Shown here: positions 12,865 to 31,477 of the stretch, in pieces
How positions within the stretch are numbered: the stretch's first letter is position 1
Layout of the letters: every line of letters starts with the position of its first letter
DNA from: Thermincola sp.
GTDB taxonomy: Bacteria; Bacillota; Thermincolia; Thermincolales; UBA2595
Direction of reading: 5' to 3'
NCBI GenBank assembly: GCA_022735835.1
Contig: DYZU01000154.1
Coordinates: 1 to 35,125 of the forward strand
DNA: 35,125 nt
The notes under the pieces: model-generated
What the model saw: the letters and a program-made list of their open reading frames with translations, nothing else
Told to the model about the DNA's origin: nothing
Databases searched by the model: none
Program-made: the position numbers and the translations under genes

Positions 12865-13344
12865 TTAAACTCTTCCAAGGATCACGGTCCGGTCGCCTTT
12901 TTCTTTTTCACACTTTTTACAGGAATGATACCAAAAATAAAACTCGGTAGTCAGGAGCTTCTGTGACATCAGGTACCTGTCAAACTGTTTCAGAGCCTTG
13001 GGAACCAGGTATTTGGGGCCGGTAAAGGTTTTCCCCATCAGTTTCAGGCTGTTGAATTTTTTAACATTCTCGTCCTTCACAGAAGGGTCAACGATTTCAA
13101 TCATTATCCTTCCCATTAACAGCCCGTCTTCGAAAATTACGAATAAAGGGGATACCGTCCGGTAACCCTTGGATTCTATTTCCCTGAGTGTTTTCTCTAT
13201 TTTAATTTCCGGGTTCATGGGAAAATGGGATACCATAGGGATCTTCGAAGTATAAAAGGTTTTTCCCGAAAGATCCAATTCCTGCAGATCAAGCGTGGCA
13301 AATTCCTCCGGGGATAAATCCGGGCAAAAACAATGAAGCCTCAT
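12865..13344 (-). CDS. Conserved-looking hypothetical protein with Cys-rich tail
   Basis: A soluble protein of 159 residues that I cannot place in a family. It begins MRLHCFCPDLSPEEF and ends with a C-x2-C pair (SCKKCEKEKGDR), so a metal site built from Cys5, Cys7 and the late pair is possible. The middle has alternating strands (VSPLFVIFEDGLLMGRIMIEI), suggesting an alpha/beta fold. GAGGTG lies seven bases before the ATG. It follows the small membrane protein gene by nine bases on the same strand, so the two are probably translated from one mRNA. Confidence 0.7.
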   Translation of the reverse strand: MRLHCFCPDLSPEEFATLDLQELDLSGKTFYTSKIPMVSHFPMNPEIKIEKTLREIESKGYRTVSPLFVIFEDGLLMGRIMIEIVDPSVKDENVKKFNSLKLMGKTFTGPKYLVPKALKQFDRYLMSQKLLTTEFYFWYHSCKKCEKEKGDRTVILGRV

Positions 13345-13353
13345 CCTTGCACC

Positions 13354-13662
13354 TCACTGACGATTCATTGTCGCCTTATTGTATTCCGGCAACTGTAGAG
13401 TTCTAAGCGCCATTCCCGTACCAAGGTTTATCCCTACTCCAACAGACCACATTTTTTTCAGGGTATCCACCGGAATGTAAAAGGCAATAATCAAAAGGGC
13501 AATTGTTCCAATAATGCTCCACCTGATTGTATTCCGGGCCTTGTCGGGAAAACCGAGGCGGCGCCAGTTGAAAGCCGCCATAAGGGCCCCGAAAATAAAA
13601 TGCGGGACAGAAACGATAGGAATCAATACGGGATTGAAAAGCCGTCTGGAATTGGCTGACAT
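13354..13662 (-). CDS. Small membrane protein, unknown
   Basis: A 102-residue protein with two hydrophobic segments (about 12-32, containing PVLIPIVSVPHFIFGALMAAF, and about 48-66, TIRWSIIGTIALLIIAFYI), followed by a weakly hydrophobic stretch (about 72-90). It is probably an integral membrane protein of two or three helices. No enzyme motif is seen. A perfect AAGGAGGT lies just before the ATG. It is the first gene of a two-gene unit with the Cys-tailed hypothetical protein. Confidence 0.7.
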   Translation of the reverse strand: MSANSRRLFNPVLIPIVSVPHFIFGALMAAFNWRRLGFPDKARNTIRWSIIGTIALLIIAFYIPVDTLKKMWSVGVGINLGTGMALRTLQLPEYNKATMNRQ

Positions 13663-14298: not shown

Positions 14299-14487
14299 TT
14301 ACTCTTCCTTTATGGCGGCGGTCGGACACCCTTCGACCGCTTCGTGTGCACATTGTTCCTTGTCTTTGGGCACTTCACTGACCTTGGCCACAGCCTTGTC
14401 GTCATCGCCCCATTCAAATATATCCGGGCATGTATTTATACATGCGCCGCAGCTGATACATAAATCGTCAAAAACTTCTACTTTCAT
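14299..14487 (-). CDS. Single-cluster 4Fe-4S ferredoxin
   Basis: A 62-residue low-potential electron carrier. Cys10, Cys13, Cys16 and Cys54 match the C-x2-C-x2-C...CP pattern of one-cluster ferredoxins; Cys20 and Cys46 could form the disulphide or vestigial second site seen in this group. The protein is acidic, as expected. The ATG at 14487 is chosen because GTGGGGATA before it acts as ribosome binding site; a GTG at 14499 would put that site inside the gene. It follows the candidate selenoprotein by 47 bases on the same strand and could be its cotranscribed partner. Confidence 0.92.
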   Translation of the reverse strand: MKVEVFDDLCISCGACINTCPDIFEWGDDDKAVAKVSEVPKDKEQCAHEAVEGCPTAAIKEE

Positions 14488-14534: not shown

Positions 14535-15110
14535 TTATTGTTCCTGGTCAGCCGGATTATTCAGCTTATCTCCTACTCCGCCCAAAAATTTTCTGACTCC
14601 GGGGAATATAATTATATCCGTTACTGACTTTTTGAATTCTTCCCCCATCGGGGAGTCGGATCGGTATTCGACTTCAAATTGTTCCTTGGCCGGGTGAAAC
14701 TCCACCCTGTCGACAGTGGGGAACCCTTCCAGGGTCCGCTTCACACGGGAAACTCATCCGCCGCATAACAATCCTGTTACTGTCAGAATCGCCCTGCGCT
14801 TTCCGGGTATCAGCTCCACATCGGAAAAAACCGTGACTGCGGGATTAATCCAGATATTTCTTATTCCCGGCCCCCGGGAAGAACATGACCGGTCACGGTC
14901 AGCTTCTTTGCTGCAGGTTTGACATGTGTTTTCAATGGCCCTGGCAGCCGCCACAAACGGTATGCTGACAAAGTCCTCGGCTATATCAACCATTTGCTTG
15001 GCGCTGGTATTTTTATCGGAAATCAAACTGCGGGCGGCTCTCAGGGGAAGCAGCGCCAGGGACTGGTTAAGCCTGATACCCTCTTTGATAATGTCCAGCA
15101 TTTCCTTCAT
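14535..15110 (-). CDS. Candidate selenoprotein with HMA-like CGGU motif
   Basis: Read through one TGA (14754-14756), this gene gives 191 residues. Residues 1-118 and 120-191 are in the same frame. The first part has amphipathic N-terminal helices, a Cys cluster (Cys63, Cys66, Cys76) and a beta-strand start (KRRAILTVTG). The TGA falls in LLCGG-U-VSRVKRTLEGFP, exactly where heavy-metal-associated domains have the second Cys of their CxxC. What follows (VDRVEFHPAKEQFEVEY) is typical of that fold. The last 40 residues (IIIFPGVRKFLGGVGDKL) are helical. A hairpin with SECIS-like position lies just downstream. A metal-binding or redox role is inferred. The alternative is a pseudogene with a nonsense mutation, less likely because no other lesion is seen and the stop hits precisely the functional Cys. 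The ferredoxin gene follows. Confidence 0.8.
14720..14737 (-). promoter_or_regulatory. Candidate bacterial SECIS hairpin
   Basis: In the mRNA sense, GGACCC, loop TGGAA, then GGGTTCC form a six-base-pair stem with one bulged T. The stem starts 17 bases after the TGA. The apical loop has G as its second base. As I recall the family rules, bacterial SECIS elements lie immediately 3' of the UGA with a short stem and a G within the first two loop bases, which fits. Not checked by folding software. Confidence 0.6.
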
Positions 15111-15275
15111 TCACCACCGAACTAAGTTTAAACCATCCCCGTTTTTTAATATTATTCCCTACCACGGGACGGCTATCCCTTAATCTGAGGTTTTGTTTTG
15201 CTTTCATAAAACTTTAGGGAAACAGGAAAAACTAAAACGGTAACTTTTTTAATACTTTCCACGGGAGTGTTTGTT

Positions 15276-16430
15276 ATGCAATATGACGTGGCAGTAATCG
15301 GAGCCGGCCCCGCAGGTTCAACCGCCGCAAGATACTGCGCCATGAGAGGTCTCAAAACCCTGTTGCTGGACAGGCGCCGTTTCCCCAGGCCAAAAACCTG
15401 CGGGGGCGGTGTCACAACTGCGGCCTTGAATGCCATCGGCTTTCCCCTGCCGGCAGACATTGTTCGCGGGCACATAAAAAATCTCTGCTCTCATATCGGC
15501 AACAAGACTGTGCGCATATCCCATACCCGTGTTTTTATGATTACTGTTGACAGGTCAGAGTTTGACAATTACCTGGTTAAAAAAGCCGTGGATGCAGGGG
15601 CGCAATTTCACCAGGATGAATGCGTTACAGGTTTGGCCCGGGAGGGAAATGTGTTCTCAATCAGGACGCCAAACAACTGTTACAGGGCTGCGTCAATTAT
15701 AGGAGCGGACGGAGTCCATTCGGCAACGGCCAGGCTCACAGGGCTTAAGAACAGCCGGAAAAACTGCGCCCTGTGCCTGTCACTGGATATACCCGCAGGC
15801 CTTGACAACAGGCAAAGTGAAACTATACAGGTTTACTATGACCTTGTTCCCCGGGGCTACGGCTGGATTTTCCCGAAAGGGGACAGGATTTCCCTGGGTG
15901 TAGGGGGTTTTACGGGAAATTACGCCTTGCTCGGAAATGCCCTGCAAAAAGTTGCGGTCATTGCAGGTATTAACCTGCCGGGTAATATTAAAGGTTATTA
16001 TATTCCCTGCGGCGGTCAAACAAAAAAATGCTTCTCTGACGGAGTAATTCTGGCAGGCGACGCGGCCGGGTTTGTGGATCCCTTTACCGGAGAAGGGATC
16101 AGGTTTGCCGTAATTTCCGGGATGCTGGCCGGGGAGACTGTATGGAACTGTTTCCGGAACGGGTTGTCCCTCAAAAAAGAAAACCTGGCAGGCTACATGA
16201 AGAAGTGCCACCGGGCTTTTCTCAGGGATTTTAGATGCAGTTTGTTACTTTCGCGGGCTTTTTTCTCTCTTCCGTCCGCCATGCAGGGTCTGCTTTTTCA
16301 TAATGCAGACAATTACAGCCGGCTTCTGCATATCCTTGAAGGCCGCTCTACGTACCGGAAGTATCTGAAAAGTTTGTTAGCACGCCTGCCGAAATATTGT
16401 GTTAAAAAGACCTGCCAAACTCAGGGGTAG
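15276..16430 (+). CDS. Geranylgeranyl-reductase-family FAD oxidoreductase
   Basis: A 384-residue flavoprotein. The dinucleotide-binding motif DVAVIGAGPAGSTAA is at the N-terminus (about 4-18), with the family motif PRPKTCGGGV near 40-50. The second FAD-contact block GDAAGFVDPFTGEGI is near 262-276. Relatives reduce isoprenoid double bonds in lipids or quinones, or act as broad halogenase-like oxidoreductases, and the substrate here is unknown. The ATG at 15276 fits a GGGAG site; a GTG at 15267 overlaps that site. The 3' end overlaps the convergent NapH-like gene by 29 bases, so the two cannot both be fully transcribed without antisense contact. Confidence 0.85.
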   Translation: MQYDVAVIGAGPAGSTAARYCAMRGLKTLLLDRRRFPRPKTCGGGVTTAALNAIGFPLPADIVRGHIKNLCSHIGNKTVRISHTRVFMITVDRSEFDNYLVKKAVDAGAQFHQDECVTGLAREGNVFSIRTPNNCYRAASIIGADGVHSATARLTGLKNSRKNCALCLSLDIPAGLDNRQSETIQVYYDLVPRGYGWIFPKGDRISLGVGGFTGNYALLGNALQKVAVIAGINLPGNIKGYYIPCGGQTKKCFSDGVILAGDAAGFVDPFTGEGIRFAVISGMLAGETVWNCFRNGLSLKKENLAGYMKKCHRAFLRDFRCSLLLSRAFFSLPSAMQGLLFHNADNYSRLLHILEGRSTYRKYLKSLLARLPKYCVKKTCQTQG

Positions 16431-17163
16431 TGCTGGATTTGCGCCCGACACCGAGTGTCAGGCAATTTTTGGGGCAGTGCTTGATGCACTCGGTGCACAT
16501 GATGCATTCCGGATGAGAAACACGCTGGTTAAAAGAAATGTACTTTAGAACAGGCACCCCCATCGGACATACCTCTTCACATTTACGGCACTTGTTGCAG
16601 GCGAGATGGTTTTTCTCCACCTTGATGATGCTCCTGGGAGAGGTAACTGTCATGAGGGCACCGGCAGGACAAAGATATTTACAAAAAGCTCTCCGGTCCC
16701 CGAGGAGAAAAGCGAGAAAAATTCCCGAGCCAAAGATGACGGCATTTTCAGCCAGAAGCCACTTGAACTGGGCCTCCGGACTCTGAAAACCCCGGCCTGC
16801 GACAATAAACAAAAACGGAATTCCCAGCACAAAAAACAGGACTAAGTATTTGTACATATAAAATTTTTCAGGCAGTTTTTTTAACCGGTTTCTGACAGGC
16901 AAAACATCAAAAACGCCGGCATTCCAGCAGGCCCAACCGCAGAACGCGCGCCCGAAAAGCAAAGGACCAAAAAACTTGGCAATGGCTACATGGATTACGG
17001 CTCCCGCGAATACTCCCGCAGACAGGTTGAAAACCACCTGGCTTAATTGCAAGTTGGTTTTCCTTAGAACAAACTGAACGCCCCAATAATAAAGGGCAAA
17101 TATAAAAAGGAAGGTTAAACGGGCTGGTATAACCGGTTTTTTCCTTCTGACCCGTCTCTTCAT
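16402..17163 (-). CDS. NapH/NosR-like membrane ferredoxin
   Basis: A 253-residue membrane electron-transfer protein. It has about four or five transmembrane segments, two Cys motifs of the membrane part (FCGWACW and FCKYLCPAG) and two C-terminal 4Fe-4S sites (CNKCRKCEEVCP and CIMCTECIKHCP). NapH, NosR and CcoG relatives pass electrons between the quinone pool and soluble carriers. No nitrate or nitrous oxide genes are near. It follows the Fe-S aldo/keto reductase by 67 bases on the same strand and may link it to the membrane. The ATG at 17163 follows AAGGTAAGG; the longer frame from 17196 lacks a site. Confidence 0.88.
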   Translation of the reverse strand: MKRRVRRKKPVIPARLTFLFIFALYYWGVQFVLRKTNLQLSQVVFNLSAGVFAGAVIHVAIAKFFGPLLFGRAFCGWACWNAGVFDVLPVRNRLKKLPEKFYMYKYLVLFFVLGIPFLFIVAGRGFQSPEAQFKWLLAENAVIFGSGIFLAFLLGDRRAFCKYLCPAGALMTVTSPRSIIKVEKNHLACNKCRKCEEVCPMGVPVLKYISFNQRVSHPECIMCTECIKHCPKNCLTLGVGRKSSTTPEFGRSF

Positions 17164-17230
17164 ATCCTTACCTTCTTCCTTTTTCTTCGTGAACACATAC
17201 TTCGCGGTTGACCGCAGCTTTCCCTTTAAC

Positions 17231-30682: not shown

Positions 30683-31342
30683 TCATTTGGTCTTCCGGAA
30701 ATAGGCGTAAGTCATGGGTTCTCTGTCTTCAATTACCGCCCCGTCAATAACATCGGCTATAAACAGGGTATGGGTCCCAACGTCCACACTTTTGTCGCGC
30801 AGGATTTGGCCTTCAAGAAAAGCGATGCCTCCCCTGATAATCGGAACACCGGTCGTGGCCCTGAAATATTCCAGGCCGGCAAATTTATCCCTTTCCCTGC
30901 CTGAACTGTACCCAAACCGTCTCACCAGGTCGTGGCCGTCCTGACCGAGGACAGTGATACCCAGTACTCCGCTTTCCTGCATAAATTCATGGGTCAGGTT
31001 GGATTTATTAATGCCCACGGCAACCCTCATGGGCTCACTGGTAATCTGAAAAACCGTATTTGCAATCTGGCCGTTGATCCTCTCACCCTTAACAGATGTT
31101 ACTATAAATAGACCGTAAGATATTTTGAAGAGGGCGGACTGCATGGATTTCGGGTCCGATATTACAGGCGCTCCGGTATCACCTTCCACTACTTCAAACA
31201 AGTCACGCCCTACTCCGCACACAGGACAGACCCAATCCTCCGGAAGTCCCTCAAAAGGCGTTCCGGACAGGACCCCCTGCCCGGGATCCCCCTTTTCAGG
31301 ATCGTATACATAGCCGCAAACCGTGCAGCGCCATTTTTTCAT
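30683..31342 (-). CDS. Rubredoxin-flavin reductase fusion (Hrb-like)
   Basis: A 219-residue protein with an N-terminal rubredoxin (Cys6, Cys9, Cys39, Cys42 in [10 protein letters not shown] and WVCPVCG) and a C-terminal FMN-binding flavin reductase domain (about 65-219). Proteins of this kind, such as high-molecular-weight rubredoxin of Moorella, pass electrons from NADH to flavodiiron proteins that reduce O2 or NO in anaerobes. The ATG at 31342 follows AGGAG by eight bases; a GTG at 31351 overlaps that region. No flavodiiron gene is present in the window. It is a single-gene unit. Confidence 0.92.
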
Positions 31343-31477
31343 ACCGACCACTCCTATCTACTCATTTATTTTTTCCAACACAAACCATATTAAGTATAAT
31401 TCCGCGTAAAACCCGGTTTTCCTGCTTTCCAACCGAATAGCCAAGATCTGCTGAGCAACAGAAGACCGCAGCAAAGT

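Follow-up and report, generated by a model that had tools for sequence, protein, structure and literature searches.

The minus strand of a 35,125-nucleotide stretch of Thermincola DNA, called the window below, carries an open frame broken by one TGA, and the question is whether this codon ends a gene or is read as selenocysteine (Sec) and, if so, what the product does. An earlier note had proposed a probable selenoprotein with a heavy-metal-associated (HMA) domain, made of two open frames that join in phase across the TGA with no other lesion. This reading of the frame was confirmed: it begins with ATG at 15110 and ends with TAA at 14537-14535, and the TGA at 14756-14754 is the sole internal stop. 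The coordinates in the note were correct, and the strand, which it had not given, is minus. Reading through the TGA yields a product of 191 residues with U at position 119. The elements at issue are the following.

14535..15110, minus strand: putative selenoprotein gene, 191 aa, with an N-terminal helical region (2-64), an HMA-type domain (about 91-167) and a C-terminal helix; homologs in 16 other genomes.
14754..14756, minus strand: the TGA codon, predicted Sec, residue 119; TGA in 17/17 members, aligned to the second Cys of CxxC in CopA, CopZ and MerP.
14763..14765, minus strand: Cys116 (TGC), the partner of Sec119 in CxxU; invariant in 17/17 members.

The motif around the predicted Sec is GLLC116-G-G-U119-VSRVKRTLEGFP, so that the TGA lies three residues past the Cys (CxxU), and not four as had been stated. 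The Pfam HMA profile (PF00403) matches residues 109-162 with an E-value of 4.3e-8 and 33.9 bits, against a cut-off of 24.8. Metal-binding members of this family typically have a GMxCxxC loop, which the PF00403 profile does not demand; it is absent here, being replaced by GLLCGGU in the window protein and by GLICYSVU in others. Three additional cysteines (63, 66 and 76) had been cited in support of a redox or metal role. They are present, but fail as support: the CxxC is missing from L004, L008 and L009, and short members lack the entire region. A second site built from a conserved Cys trio was rejected on the same ground.

Homologs were sought in 200 related whole genomes, and by profile search in 399 genomes of the phylum Bacillota. 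Within the first sample, seven same-family genomes (at 60-69% identity) and G011 carry homologs of the whole protein, and other families carry shorter ones. Altogether the gene is present in 17 Bacillota genomes, window included, representing eight families, and each of the 17 genes, read on its proper strand, has one TGA at the identical aligned position. The profile search of the 399 genomes returned the same 17 at E<1e-29, all with TGA, and the next matches were CopA/CopZ-type HMA domains at E>1e-11; no Cys ortholog was therefore found among these 399 genomes, and the homologues with Cys that the earlier note had suggested looking for come down, at the nearest, to CopA/CopZ domains. The other homologues that it suggested looking for, TGA-containing ones in Sec-competent genomes, were found: 16 other carriers have the TGA together with selA, selB, selD and tRNA-Sec. 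A degenerate-peptide scan of genome contigs with the single window protein recovered one close relative only, a tblastn search of plasmids with two members gave no match, and a wider look at the classes to which G123 and G118 belong brought no new carriers.

Member proteins are roughly 104-191 aa long, with the N-terminal helical region confined to family f1 (eight members) and to the G011 protein. The Cys-Sec motif occurs as CGGU, CGLU, CFLU and CDAU, or one residue longer as CYTLU, CYSVU and CYSLU; this CxxxU spacing, found in four members, is unlike the canonical metal loop. No coding frame among the 17 carriers has a stop besides the TGA. None of the homologues ends at it either: all 17 continue with a conserved second half of the HMA domain, the typical continuation that the earlier note had recognised. 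In same-family genes, differences past the TGA are mostly synonymous, with dN/dS of about 0.04-0.3 where dS was computable. Judged by these substitutions, the sequence past the TGA is under purifying selection and evolves as coding DNA. Since, in addition, 17 genomes retain the TGA at the same column, its presence in frame is not due to chance, and this recurrence, which takes in two single-contig assemblies (G119 and G123, which may be isolates), excludes a sequencing error.

We then considered the RNA downstream of the TGA, where one further element was predicted.

14720..14738, minus strand: predicted bacterial SECIS stem-loop with 7 possible pairs and loop UGGAA, starting 15 bases past the TGA; marked by covariation and wobble bias.

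The 41 bases starting at the TGA align without gaps across members. Columns 19-25 can pair with 31-37 to give a stem of as many as seven pairs, closed by a UGGAA or similar loop, and RNAalifold yields the same stem. Changes on both sides were seen in six of the seven pairs; on all five covariation measures, none of 500 shuffles reached the observed values, and slid registers of the stem scored far worse than the observed one. As this region also encodes protein (T/A-L-E-G), pairing was tested at wobble positions. In the 5′ arm the third base of the codon pairs in 17/17 genes, where local codon usage would predict 9.9; in the 3′ arm the third base of the codon does so in 15/17, against 4.3 expected; these counts are not independent, the genes being related, yet eight families are represented. 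L018 has a weaker predicted stem. The Rfam SECIS_1 model found no match in the window's own genome, a null result that is uninformative because it matched no control genome either, not even E. coli.

The earlier note had named an absence of Sec machinery as a result that would refute its reading, and here the outcome was mixed. The selB gene was found in all 17 carriers, the window's genome among them; it is present in 140 of the 200 sampled genomes, and the 60 genomes lacking it all lack the gene studied here. selA, selD and tRNA-Sec are present in the 16 other carriers, so that these have all four; searches of the genome that the window comes from, a 75%-complete metagenome-assembled genome (MAG), found none of the three. 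In relatives the selA-selD block is bordered by genes, one of them 84-90% identical between genera, that have no ortholog in the window assembly, and the same is true of the neighbour of tRNA-Sec; the sel regions are therefore missing from the assembly as a whole. In G001, the only other genome of the same genus (63% complete), selB and tRNA-Sec were found, selA and selD were not. Given the missing flanking genes and the presence of tRNA-Sec and selB in G001, assembly loss is likelier than a true loss of the machinery in the genus. As a side observation, eight genomes (G002, G005, G007, G008, G011, G087, G097 and G118) carry a pair of full-length selD genes, both of them containing an in-frame TGA.

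With a conserved TGA, a covarying stem-loop, purifying selection and sel machinery in carriers, the claim of a probable selenoprotein stood up well, and on this comparative evidence UGA codon 119 is almost certainly read as Sec.

AlphaFold2, run on the family alignment, modelled residues 90-167 with high confidence and the helical N-terminus with moderate confidence. The modelled domain aligned with MerP, CopZ and PacS at TM scores of 0.75-0.78 (by target length). In the model, residues 91-101 form a strand ahead of beta-1, and the fourth strand that normally comes after the second helix is missing, which may, as far as secondary structure tells, amount to a strand swap. When the family profile was compared with solved copper ATPase (Cu(I)-binding) domains, the Sec column fell on the second Cys of CxxC. 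The earlier note had thus placed the TGA correctly, at the second metal-binding Cys. The closest solved relatives of the domain bind metal.

The neighbourhood gave a different indication as to role. The genes next to the putative selenoprotein gene are listed here.

14299..14487, minus strand: gene for a 62-aa single-[4Fe-4S] ferredoxin, starting 47 bases downstream (PF13370, E 3.6e-14).
15267..16430, plus strand: divergent flavoprotein of the geranylgeranyl-reductase family (TIGR02032, 225 bits), which clusters with the FixC-like genes beside two distant members.
16402..17196, minus strand: NapH-like polyferredoxin, upstream neighbour in 6/8 same-family loci, window included.

The ferredoxin gene announced in the earlier note is thus real. 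It probably shares one transcript with the selenoprotein gene, and each of the nine genomes of families f1 and f2 has it at this position. A ferredoxin-domain aldo/keto reductase gene also lies upstream of the window gene. Neighbourhoods vary among distant members: FixC- and FixX-like genes are immediately upstream in two of them, and a third has a cytochrome b561 gene nearby. No copper, mercury or other metal-resistance genes were seen in the window.

Several other features of these loci were recorded. At L078:2331-8195, the selenoprotein gene stands in a row with a FixC-like and a FixX-like gene before it and a gene for a glycine betaine BCCT transporter (NF047988) after it, and just upstream of this row are apparent genes for a corrinoid protein and an AraC-type regulator, read from the sequence only; this row could possibly belong to betaine metabolism. 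In four distant members the gene is flanked, in differing orientations, by two small families with glycine-zipper-like helices and no Pfam match (L074:933-1238 and L074:1735-2031, with relatives in L075, L076 and L077). These are possible functional partners of the selenoprotein. A relationship between them and the N-terminal helical region was rejected, the profile comparison giving an E-value of 0.61. Within the window, two hypothetical genes on the minus strand downstream of the ferredoxin gene, at 12865-13344 (PF20603) and 13354-13662, are kept in most same-family genomes, and a fusion of rubredoxin with a flavin reductase domain is encoded at 30683-31351, minus strand.

Taken together, we propose the following scheme. 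SelB almost certainly decodes UGA codon 119 as Sec at the stem-loop just downstream. The product is an HMA-type fold whose CxxC metal loop has changed to Cys-Gly-Gly-Sec; in the lineage of the window it is extended at the N-terminus by a helical region. Cys116 and Sec119 would then form a reversible selenenylsulfide, exchanging reducing equivalents with the adjacent ferredoxin. As a whole, this account of a Sec-decoded HMA-type protein with a thiol/selenol redox role is moderately probable; for the redox role of the Cys-Sec pair itself, deduced from neighbourhood and chemistry, we would put the chances at about even. On an evolutionary scale, the family may be a Sec-only one, in which an HMA metal fold became a ferredoxin-coupled redox selenoprotein with a catalytic CxxU or CxxxU and with no Cys orthologs in the sampled phylum, an idea that we offer tentatively.

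The most serious alternative keeps the selenoprotein and changes its function: Cys116 and Sec119 would make a CopZ- or MerP-like site for the soft metals Cu(I), Hg(II) or Cd(II), selenium would boost the affinity, and the protein would buffer or deliver metal. The Pfam HMA domain, the fold resembling MerP and CopZ, the position of Sec exactly at the second metal-binding Cys of CopA/CopZ, and the listing of a related UxxU HMA selenoprotein as metal-binding all speak for such a site, and it is a real possibility, if a little short of an even one. Against it, four members have CxxxU, the Met of GMxCxxC is replaced by Leu or Ile, and no metal transporter, regulator or reductase lies beside the gene in the window or among the scanned neighbours at other loci, where ferredoxin and FixCX point to another role. 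A Cys-Sec redox pair has a slight edge over the soft-metal site, because ferredoxin follows in nine genomes, FixC-FixX precede in two, and no metal-resistance genes are nearby; the variable Cys-Sec spacing, together with this neighbourhood, favours a redox pair served by ferredoxin.

That the TGA is a true stop, in a pseudogene, through a sequencing error or as the end of a truncated 118-aa protein, is very improbable. The failure to find selA, selD and tRNA-Sec in the window's MAG would agree with a stop, but the genes flanking these loci are likewise missing, the machinery is present in every other carrier, and a TGA held at one column by 17 carriers, among them two single-contig assemblies, in a frame free of other stops, with purifying selection downstream and a covarying SECIS, is not what a stop would leave. 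Still less probable is that the TGA is passed in some other way, be it near-cognate readthrough as Trp, a reassigned code or a pair of separate genes: the frame does run on without a gap, but relatives have Cys and not Trp at the aligned position, a covarying stem occupies the SECIS position, the codon directly 3′ of the TGA in the window gene is GTT, no start codon, and TGA is the ordinary stop of 4 of 25 other checked window genes.

As to novelty, the earlier note had called the protein undescribed, and this held in the sources consulted: the window protein passes no NCBIfam model (June 2026), a 2026 inventory of 119 families lists no single-Sec CxxU HMA protein (PMC13188914, Table 1), and the main text of the deep-Sep paper does not report the family (PMC12013277). 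Sec-containing HMA-type proteins as such are not new, a UxxU family and a UxxC P-type ATPase being already known. The family would add one to the inventory of about 119, and its gene is cut at the UGA by standard gene calling. For nearly all selenoproteins, many Cys homologs exist (PMC12013277); the window family, without Cys orthologs in 399 phylum genomes, contrasts with most of them. It also brings a specific question within reach of a test, namely what selenium is for in a copper/mercury-type site of these bacteria: affinity for metal or transfer of electrons.

CopZ, the N-terminal HMA domains of CopA, and MerP share with the window protein the fold and the position of the two chalcogen residues. 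In these proteins Cys-x-x-Cys follows a GM motif and serves metal transport, whereas the window family has Sec, GLL or GLI, and ferredoxin neighbours instead. The window protein remains below both CopZ models (NF033795, 26.1 bits against a cut-off of 91; NF033794, 23.3 against 95). A cation-transporting ATPase with UxxC and a MerT with C/SxxU are metal-transport proteins predicted to carry Sec (PMC13188914, Table 1); unlike the window protein, they are membrane transporters, with Sec elsewhere or in another fold. The CC/Se motif family of Moorella (NF041239) has CxxU in a Bacillota selenoprotein, as in the window, and is a separate family, with no match at E<0.1. The closest entry is NF041115, UxxU_metal_bind, entered as a 'putative mercuric reductase' (PMC13188914), which like the window protein has an HMA-type domain with Sec in the metal-binding loop. 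Yet the window protein scores 25.2 bits against its cut-off of 95, and the two differ in architecture: NF041115 is a 74-position family with two Sec (UxxU), whereas the window family has one Sec (CxxU or CxxxU) and extensions at both the N- and C-terminus.
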